Below are positions 39,514 to 63,639 of a DNA stretch of 64,000 nucleotides, one piece after another. Position 1 is the stretch's first letter. Every line of letters starts with the position of its first letter. The notes under the pieces were generated by a model. That model worked only from the letters and a program-made list of their open reading frames with translations, was not told the DNA's origin and did not search any database. The DNA comes from Clostridiales bacterium. GTDB lineage: Bacteria > Bacillota > Clostridia > Tissierellales > GPF-1. The position numbers and the translations under genes are program-made. The stretch is taken from the NCBI GenBank assembly GCA_013619125.1, contig JABXKS010000094.1, positions 1 to 64,000 of the forward strand, given 5' to 3'.

Positions 39514-39611
39514 ATGAATAGATCTTCGTAATTATTTGCAGAGGGTTTAATCTGCAAATATAAGTTCAGCGAAGATGTTCAGGCTTGAACAGGCTTCAAG
39601 ACTGAATTCAT
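39514..39611 (+). repeat. Structured intergenic element, copy A
   Basis: ATGAAT...ATTCAT ends; ATCTTCGt/gCGAAGAT; ATTTGCAGA-GGGTTTAA-TCTGCAAAT hairpin; near-identical to copies at 55119 and 55226. Confidence 0.85.
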
Positions 39612-54859: not shown

Positions 54860-55113
54860 GAACTTGTGGTATCAATAAAGAAAGACATGGAACAAGAAGA
54901 GTACTTGCGAGAGGGATGAAGAGAGAAGCTGGTTGGTGAGAAGCTTACGATTTGAGCAGGGAAGTGCGCTTGGGAGTCGACGCCTGAAATAAGTAGGGTT
55001 GTTCGGATGATCTCGTTATCGATCGATGAGAGAAAGGATGCTGATCCTTTAATCAAGAGTGGAACCGCGGTGTAAATCGTCTCTTTGGAGACGACAATCA
55101 CCGCGTTTTTTTT
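54860..55113 (+). ncRNA. T-box leader (cysE-cysS), candidate Cys specifier UGC
   Basis: AAGAGTGGAACCGCGGTG antiterminator box, CACCGCG-T8 terminator, AGTA motif in Stem I; TGC in GGAAGTGCGC. Confidence 0.9.
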
Positions 55114-55118
55114 GTATG

Positions 55119-55216
55119 ATGAATATATCTTCGCAATCATTTGCAGAGGGTTCAATCTGCAAATATACGTTTAGCGAAGATGGTCTGTCTTGAACAAAGT
55201 GAAAGACTGAATTCAT
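55119..55216 (+). repeat. Structured intergenic element, copy B
   Basis: ATCTTCGC (55127-55134)/GCGAAGAT (55174-55181); ATTTGCAGA-GGGTTCAA-TCTGCAAAT (55139-55164); ATGAAT...ATTCAT ends. Confidence 0.9.
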
Positions 55217-55225
55217 TTGGACATG

Positions 55226-55319
55226 ATGAATATATCTTCGCAATCATTTGCAGAGGGTTCAATCTGCAAATAAAAGTTCAGCGAAGATGGTCTGATATGC
55301 GAAGCGTGGAAGAATTCAT
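55226..55319 (+). repeat. Structured intergenic element, copy C (tandem to B, period 107 nt)
   Basis: Same core as copy B; 3' end abuts the cysE RBS (TTTGGAGGAAG). Confidence 0.9.
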
Positions 55320-55331
55320 TTGGAGGAAGAT

Positions 55332-55991
55332 ATGTTGGGATTCAAGCAATTGAAAGAAGACATTCAAATTATTATGGAGAAAGACCCTGCGGCAAAATCC
55401 GCCTTTGAAGTCTGGATGACCTATCCCGGGCTCAAGGCGATCAGGCGCCATCGAAGAGCCCATTGGTTCTATCAAAGGGGTTGGACAACCATGGCTAGAA
55501 TTTTGTCGGATCGTGGCCGATCGAAAACGGGTATCGAGATTCATCCCGGCGCGGAGTTGGGGCGCAGACTCTTTATCGACCATGGCATGGGAATTGTAAT
55601 TGGAGAAACCTCCATTGTAGGAGACGATGTGACCATCTATCACGGCGTTACCTTGGGGGGGACTGGTAAGGAGACTGGGAAACGGCATCCCACCGTTGGC
55701 GATCATGTGATTATCAGTGCGGGTGCGAAGGTCCTGGGAAACATCGTGATCGGCGATCATTCACGGGTTGGCGCGCAGTCTGTTGTTTTGAAATCCGTTC
55801 CGGCGCATTGTACCGTTGTCGGAATTCCTGGCAAGATTGTGATTCAGAATGAAGAACGGGTTGGAAAGGCTGGCATGCCGGATCCGGTTCTTCAAGAGAT
55901 CAATTACTTGAAACAGCGGGTTCGACGTTTGGAAGACGAATTGGATCAGCTTCAGATAGAGAATGAGGAGGAATTTGATGAAAATCTATAG
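55332..55991 (+). CDS. cysE: Serine O-acetyltransferase
   Basis: GIEIHPGAELGRRLFIDHGMGIVIGETSIVGDDVTIYHGVTLGGTGKETGKRHPTVGDHV. Confidence 0.96.
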   Translation: MLGFKQLKEDIQIIMEKDPAAKSAFEVWMTYPGLKAIRRHRRAHWFYQRGWTTMARILSDRGRSKTGIEIHPGAELGRRLFIDHGMGIVIGETSIVGDDVTIYHGVTLGGTGKETGKRHPTVGDHVIISAGAKVLGNIVIGDHSRVGAQSVVLKSVPAHCTVVGIPGKIVIQNEERVGKAGMPDPVLQEINYLKQRVRRLEDELDQLQIENEEEFDENL

Positions 55992-59819: not shown

Positions 59820-59895
59820 GCCCTCGTAACTCAGCAGGTAGAGTACTTGCATGGTAAGCAAGAAGTCACCAGTTCGAATCTGGTCGTGGGCTCCA
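59820..59895 (+). tRNA. tRNA-Thr (GGT)
   Basis: Cloverleaf; anticodon loop ATGGTAA in CTTGC/GCAAG stem; T arm ACCAG-TTCGAAT-CTGGT; encoded CCA. Confidence 0.95.
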
Positions 59896-63470: not shown

Positions 63471-63601
63471 AAGGTTTAACTTGATTCACATTTCCGCAGA
63501 CAGTAGGGGCCGTAAGGCGATAAGAATCCTACCGAGGATGTTGGTGAGCGTCTAATGATGCACATTCAGCCTTTCTCGCAACTGCGGGGAAGGCTTTTTT
63601 G
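63471..63601 (+). ncRNA. Ribosomal protein L10 leader
   Basis: CCGCAGACAGTAGGGGCCGTAAGGCGATAAGAATCCTACCGAGGATG core followed by GCCTTTCTCGCAACTGCGGGGAAGGC-T6; rplA-rplJ gap. Confidence 0.88.
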
Positions 63602-63639
63602 ATGAAGTGAGAATAAACGACAAGGAGGTGGAAACCTTT

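Follow-up and report, generated by a model that had tools for sequence, protein, structure and literature searches.

A lineage-specific structured repeat inserted between terminators and downstream SD sequences or promoters, perhaps partly exapted as a leader module

Two units between a T-box and cysE

What are the two folded units that stand between the terminator of a cysteine T-box and the Shine-Dalgarno (SD) sequence of cysE? For the 64,000-nt stretch of Clostridiales DNA analysed here (the window), a sequence-only reading had offered two answers. The units could be aptamer-like and form an unusual compound leader with the T-box, or they could be a tandem insertion of a MITE/REP-like repeat. 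The latter proved mostly right: they belong to an interspersed repeat, and relatives have empty sites. The layout is as follows.

54879-55087, + strand: T-box leader of cysE-cysS (Rfam RF00230, 118.2 bits)
55106-55113, + strand: T-run of the T-box terminator, read from the sequence; copy B starts 5 nt further on
55119-55216, + strand: copy B (R2 covariance model, 91 bits)
55119-55124/55211-55216, + strand: helix P1 of copy B
55127-55134/55174-55181, + strand: helix P2 of copy B
55139-55147/55156-55164, + strand: helix P3 of copy B, with loop GGGTTCAA
about 55184-55210, + strand: helix P4 of copy B
55217-55225, + strand: 9-nt spacer from B to C, TTGGACATG, read from the sequence
55226-55319, + strand: copy C, 94 nt, with a P4 shorter than that of copy B (ATGCGAAGCGT)
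55320-55331, + strand: SD region TTGGAGGAAGAT, read from the sequence, preceding the cysE ATG at 55332
55332-55991, + strand: cysE, serine O-acetyltransferase (ORF list; NCBIfam TIGR01172, E 7e-72)
from 55963, + strand: cysS, after cysE (ORF list)
39514-39611, + strand: copy A, a further member of the family, which follows the terminator T-run of the gene before it by a few nt

Most details of the earlier description were reproduced, namely the coordinates of the tandem (55119-55319), its 107-nt period, the ATGAAT...ATTCAT bounds, the 8-bp helix ATCTTCGC/GCGAAGAT, the 9-bp helix ATTTGCAGA/TCTGCAAAT, the Cys T-box upstream (RF00230, 118 bits) and the way copy C abuts TTTGGAGGAAG, the cysE SD. 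The two units had also been called identical, which they are not: the first ~48 nt are the same, but ungapped identity between B and C is 85% and the P4 arms diverge (TTGAACAAAGTGAA vs ATGCGAAGCGT). To that description we add helix P4 and the closing role of P1; with these, each unit is a three-way junction. The spacer TTGGACATG resembles the SD-side flank TTGGAGGAA in a duplication-like manner, and the nearest kin of copy C are the four cysE copies of a congener. Both copies are more stable than their shuffles (z -3.2 for B and -2.3 for C), as is the whole tandem region (z -4.0), and the core hairpin is found three times in the window, where shuffles give an expectation of 0.00. Downstream of copy A are genes for an ECF transporter (ECF_trnsprt, PF12822) and coaX. 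The window also holds a ribosomal protein L10 leader (RF00557) at 63476-63609 and a tRNA at 59820-59892. Its T-boxes and order of genes point to a member of the Bacillota.

A covarying fold in two species of one genus

The family was collected by a DNA search of the source genome (G000) and then by covariance models, of which R2 is the final one. R2 matches 25 times in G000, a count that takes in tandem arrays and partial copies as well as one locus divided between two contig ends, and 21 times in the one-contig genome of a congener (G001). No match was found in a further congener (G002), nor in the remaining genomes of an order-wide search comprising 249 genomes and 92 genera. A degenerate pattern gave scattered single matches at about chance level among ~85,000 genomes, and one match among viral contigs. 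Units are ~94-103 nt long, or 124-129 nt where a second P3-type inner hairpin is present, and some copies are reduced to the P4 half. Copy number shifts between G000 and G001 at conserved loci, from 2 to 4 at cysE and from 1 to 2 at lysA. Each carrier genome has many dispersed copies below ~200 bp, as MITE- or BOX-like repeats do; the only candidate for terminal inverted repeats is the 6-bp pair ATGAAT/ATTCAT.

The R2 consensus is a three-way junction, with P1 (ATGAAT/ATTCAT), P2 (ATCTTCG/CGAAGAT) around P3, and a P4 of the TTGAAC-AAG-GTTCAA type. Among 41 distinct copies, 89% of cells are paired, a value that drops to about 32-41% in slid controls. Double-sided changes are present at 20 of the 35 pairs, and compensated cells number 112 against 36 in shuffles, none of 500 shuffles reaching 112. 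In the G001 copy at serS, for instance, P2 is rewritten (GGTCTTTG/CAAAGAC) and the fold retained. This covariation strongly backs the three-way junction. The loop CAA and the junction GATGGTC are unpaired constants of the family. An asymmetry of G-U over A-C pairs, which would point to the RNA strand rather than to DNA, is not decisive (41 vs 25, p 0.06). The covarying multi-helix RNA is what one expects of a riboswitch; a further expectation, genes of one pathway across lineages, is not borne out. An Rfam search gave no match above the gathering score (best chance match E 0.5), in keeping with the initial impression that no known riboswitch class is involved.

Occupied and empty sites behind terminators

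Twenty-four loci were read in the two carrier species. Their genes were named by family searches for some and, for several, on the basis of the N-terminal sequence. They are cysE, trpE, an rlmD/TRAM-domain methyltransferase gene, a MATE transporter gene, an araD-like class II aldolase gene (ald) and prmA; genes for a monovalent cation antiporter, a nucleoside hydrolase and an ECF transporter, with dnaE, a phosphate butyryl/acetyltransferase gene (ptb), glmS and trpS; and ribD, asnS, lysA, two ACT-domain genes, cysK, argS, trpX, serS, murB and one convergent site. Nearly all copies share the strand of an intrinsic terminator and begin a few nt past its T-run. The exception is a half element at one ACT-domain locus, where no terminator was seen; by eye, this locus has a likely glycine riboswitch leader, with the half element at its promoter or its 5' end, and in G000 the end of the upstream GGDEF-like gene is altered there.

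The terminators belong to leaders of many kinds. By Rfam assignment, asnS, trpS and argS have T-box leaders, as does serS downstream of the G001 cysK gene; ribD has an FMN riboswitch, lysA a lysine riboswitch and the antiporter gene a fluoride riboswitch, a tRNA is 5' of the MATE gene, and the glmS copies have a glmS ribozyme downstream. The trpE leader has a T-box signature by eye and scores under the Rfam threshold. Other element sites follow ordinary gene terminators. At cysK, ptb, prmA and the ECF transporter gene, promoter-like sequences were recognised by eye between element and gene, such as TTGGCA-N17-TAGAAT before cysK and the sigma-54-like TTGGCATGAAAGTTGCA before ptb.

Is the family simply scattered behind terminators? 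As a baseline, a crude scan of 400 kb of G001 yielded 132 intergenic terminators, of which 75 (57%) precede a co-directional gene and 57 (43%) a convergent gene. Elements are co-directional with the downstream gene at 23 of 24 loci (Fisher p 1e-4 against the 75/132), the sole convergent-gene locus being G001:511290. A co-directional start lies within 35 nt of 15/24 elements, compared with 9/132 terminators (p 3e-9). Because of these co-directional and short-gap biases, the sites are neither random nor behind just any terminator. The sequence-only reading had named random positions and orientations as the sign of a mobile repeat that would speak against a leader element; no such scatter is seen, since 23/24 loci are co-directional and nearly all copies directly follow a terminator.

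Three further observations concern the genus at large. Judged by loci of G002, terminators in the genus often end just 10-30 nt before the next start, also where no riboswitch lies upstream (dnaE, the rlmD-like and aldolase genes); given this spacing, the downstream genes seem dependent on read-through. Upstream of trpX, all three congeners have a Trp-rich short ORF (MNWRWQMN...) followed by hairpins, with the look of a leader-peptide attenuator. The short ACT-domain ORF occurs as tandem paralogues in all three, with a similar leader and terminator before each.

Empty sites were compared among the three species at ~20 loci. At 15 loci of G002, 11-29 nt separate the T-run from the start codon, and carriers have the element plus a short flank in this gap. 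At cysE, the G002 T-run leads directly into the SD (ccgcgattttttttattggaggcagacATG), and we therefore take the units to be insertions rather than part of an ancestral cysE leader. The carriers themselves differ, G000 being empty at argS and trpX, and G001 at the MATE, antiporter, ECF transporter, nucleoside hydrolase and ribD genes. This is the presence/absence polymorphism with clean empty sites that is typical of MITE- or BOX-like repeats. Repeated flanks of 6-7 nt accompany the insertions at ptb and cysK (TTGGCA) and at ald (TTAGGA), and are clear at 3-4 loci only. With 56% support, the three-species tree does not decide the root, and G002 might formally have lost every copy precisely rather than the carriers having gained them.

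Once inserted, some copies have changed little. Between G000 and G001, the identity of orthologous copies is 0.86-0.93 at six loci, with ptb lower at 0.79, compared with 0.38-0.61 for 4-fold codon sites of neighbouring genes; for the single-locus orthologues at trpS, lysA and asnS, the figures are 86-89% and about 50%. Copies at trpS, lysA, cysE, cysK and the rlmD-like gene are reciprocally nearest, and at asnS and ptb one paralogue is slightly nearer in one direction. Since orthologous copies are for the most part each other's closest relatives by locus, they appear to descend mostly from insertions that preceded the split. Stability and pairing are retained somewhat above random mutants (combined Fisher p about 0.001-0.02), and in a simple pair count over orthologous copies on the model alignment kept pairs were not in excess. 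Apparent divergence could also be lowered by ectopic gene conversion, which would then be mistaken for in-place conservation. In G001, the copies at dnaE, ald, glmS and prmA have shrunk to a bare P4 or a stub, and the ptb copy is also counted among the decayed; with several shared copies decayed in this way, an in-place function is not general. As far as sequence comparison goes, the pattern is suggestive, not proof, of selection in place or a role in some leaders.

Origin and possible role

We favour, at a probability of roughly 0.78, a lineage-specific structured repeat that was inserted in gaps between terminators and SD sequences or promoters and was perhaps partly exapted as a leader module. 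A ~100-nt three-way-junction repeat would have spread by insertion, in a transposition-like manner, and its insertion point would be the short stretch that separates an intrinsic terminator's T-run from the following gene's SD or promoter, with the orientation given by the terminator. Tandem amplification followed at some loci. In T-box and riboswitch leaders, the element would join the read-through mRNA just 5' of the SD and leave terminator and SD intact. Target preference or selective retention may operate at terminator-SD junctions, and the partly exapted copies may keep the terminator hairpin away from the SD or shield the 5' end of the read-through mRNA. Going further, one might picture a mobile RNA module that settles preferentially in the terminator-SD gaps of attenuated operons and was recruited there for a common leader task, be it mRNA protection, SD insulation or the binding of one host factor, an idea that we put forward tentatively and with some doubt.

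The strongest competitor, to which we give somewhat less than an even chance, is a purely selfish MITE/BOX-like repeat with no mRNA role, whose structure is kept for copying and whose insertion machinery recognises terminator hairpins and T-runs. It accommodates the post-terminator sites and the orientation set by the terminator, the decay at dnaE, ald, glmS, prmA and ptb, the copies 5' of likely promoters and the predicted SD accessibility, on which the element has no consistent effect. It does not anticipate the preservation of the trpS, lysA and asnS orthologues far above 4-fold sites, nor that 43% of ordinary terminators face a convergent gene and only 1/24 elements does. The opposite emphasis, a regulon-wide cis RNA for a host protein or sRNA that spread by duplication and is now selected in leaders, would explain the constant loop and junction, the compensated helices, the in-place conservation and the same-strand leader position at 23/24 loci. 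We nevertheless consider it unlikely: the downstream genes share no theme, several copies decay, the element is wholly absent from G002, which has the same leaders, and the binding partner is putative.

Far less probable still is that the tandem units behind the T-box are a metabolite-sensing riboswitch of a new class, as in the aptamer-like compound leader first imagined. The covarying multi-helix junction, its conserved unpaired nucleotides and the tandem units in the cysE leaders of both carrier species would suit a riboswitch. However, the units are confined to two species of one genus and precede about two dozen unrelated genes, some already under different riboswitches; there is no Rfam match, and the leaders of G002 are empty of units and otherwise intact. 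Nor does the unit have an expression platform of its own, the terminator being upstream. Sequestration of the SD was considered and rejected, as predicted accessibility shifts both ways. A metabolite sensor is thus disfavoured by how varied the genes are, by the narrow distribution and by the copies upstream of likely promoters; the in-place conservation hints at a leader function other than sensing.

As to how the element moved, the agent could be an HUH transposase (REP/IS200-like) acting on a single-stranded DNA hairpin, or a retroelement that targets terminators. This would fit the imperfect palindromes, the post-terminator sites and the finding that 14 of 14 G001 loci are on what is presumed to be the leading strand (p 0.02, given a gene bias of 77%). 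We judge it improbable, since that strand bias is close to the genes' own and neither candidate enzyme matches. The sole Y1_Tnp-like ORF, which lies beside a trxB-like gene and has a C-terminal helix-turn-helix, is present in one copy in each of the three congeners, and has ADNEYRLLI or EANGYRLLI in place of the HxH motif; the protein is probably domesticated. Y1/RAYT was rejected as the mobiliser because HxH is lost and the ORF also occurs in element-free G002. A group II intron reverse transcriptase was likewise rejected, since the maturases, found in G000 and G002 and absent from G001, do not follow the element's distribution. When the unit was searched against the genome, no interrupted or longer copy was found, and the Y1 and group II searches yielded no transposase or autonomous partner.

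Several known systems resemble the element in part. REP/BIME sequences are intergenic palindromic repeats of 20-40 nt with RAYT (Y1) transposases, and form tandem clusters. The element is likewise palindromic, intergenic and clustered; unlike them, it is a ~100-nt three-way junction for which no active Y1 was found. Tandem riboswitches and T-box compound leaders also place structured units in series before an SD, whereas the units here are insertions, absent from a congener, common to unrelated leaders and without evidence of sensing. The closest precedent is BOX of Streptococcus pneumoniae, a small intergenic repeat with a tight fold, paired ends, a variable number of inner modules, a lineage-restricted distribution and low mobility (PMC3049150). 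Size class, fold, modularity and narrow range are shared with the cysE-type element. One BOX even sits between two trp-operon T-boxes and is co-transcribed with them as a compound leader (PMC3049150). BOX is, however, enriched between convergent genes (PMC3049150), whereas the element nearly always precedes a co-directional gene, directly behind a terminator; no IS partner was found, and its modules differ from boxA, boxB and boxC as described. Group IIC introns, in the portion of PMC7161350 that cites Robart 2007, insert right after intrinsic terminators in an orientation set by the terminator. On that account, post-terminator insertion and the orientation rule are common to both, but the element is ~100 nt long, lacks an intron core and an Rfam match, and is not tracked by the maturases. 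The element is a targeted variant of small structured interspersed repeats, a known kind, and terminator targeting itself was already known.

If the favoured reading is true, the genus offers a natural replicated experiment, in which T-box leaders and those of FMN, lysine and fluoride riboswitches have all received one folded RNA between terminator and SD, and orthologues that lack the element serve as controls. One would see how a repeat spreads through regulatory leaders without breaking them, and could test directly whether such repeats become leader modules or remain passengers. Should the recruited-module idea hold, a single transposable element would have rewired expression platforms across one genus, in many riboswitches and T-boxes unrelated to one another.
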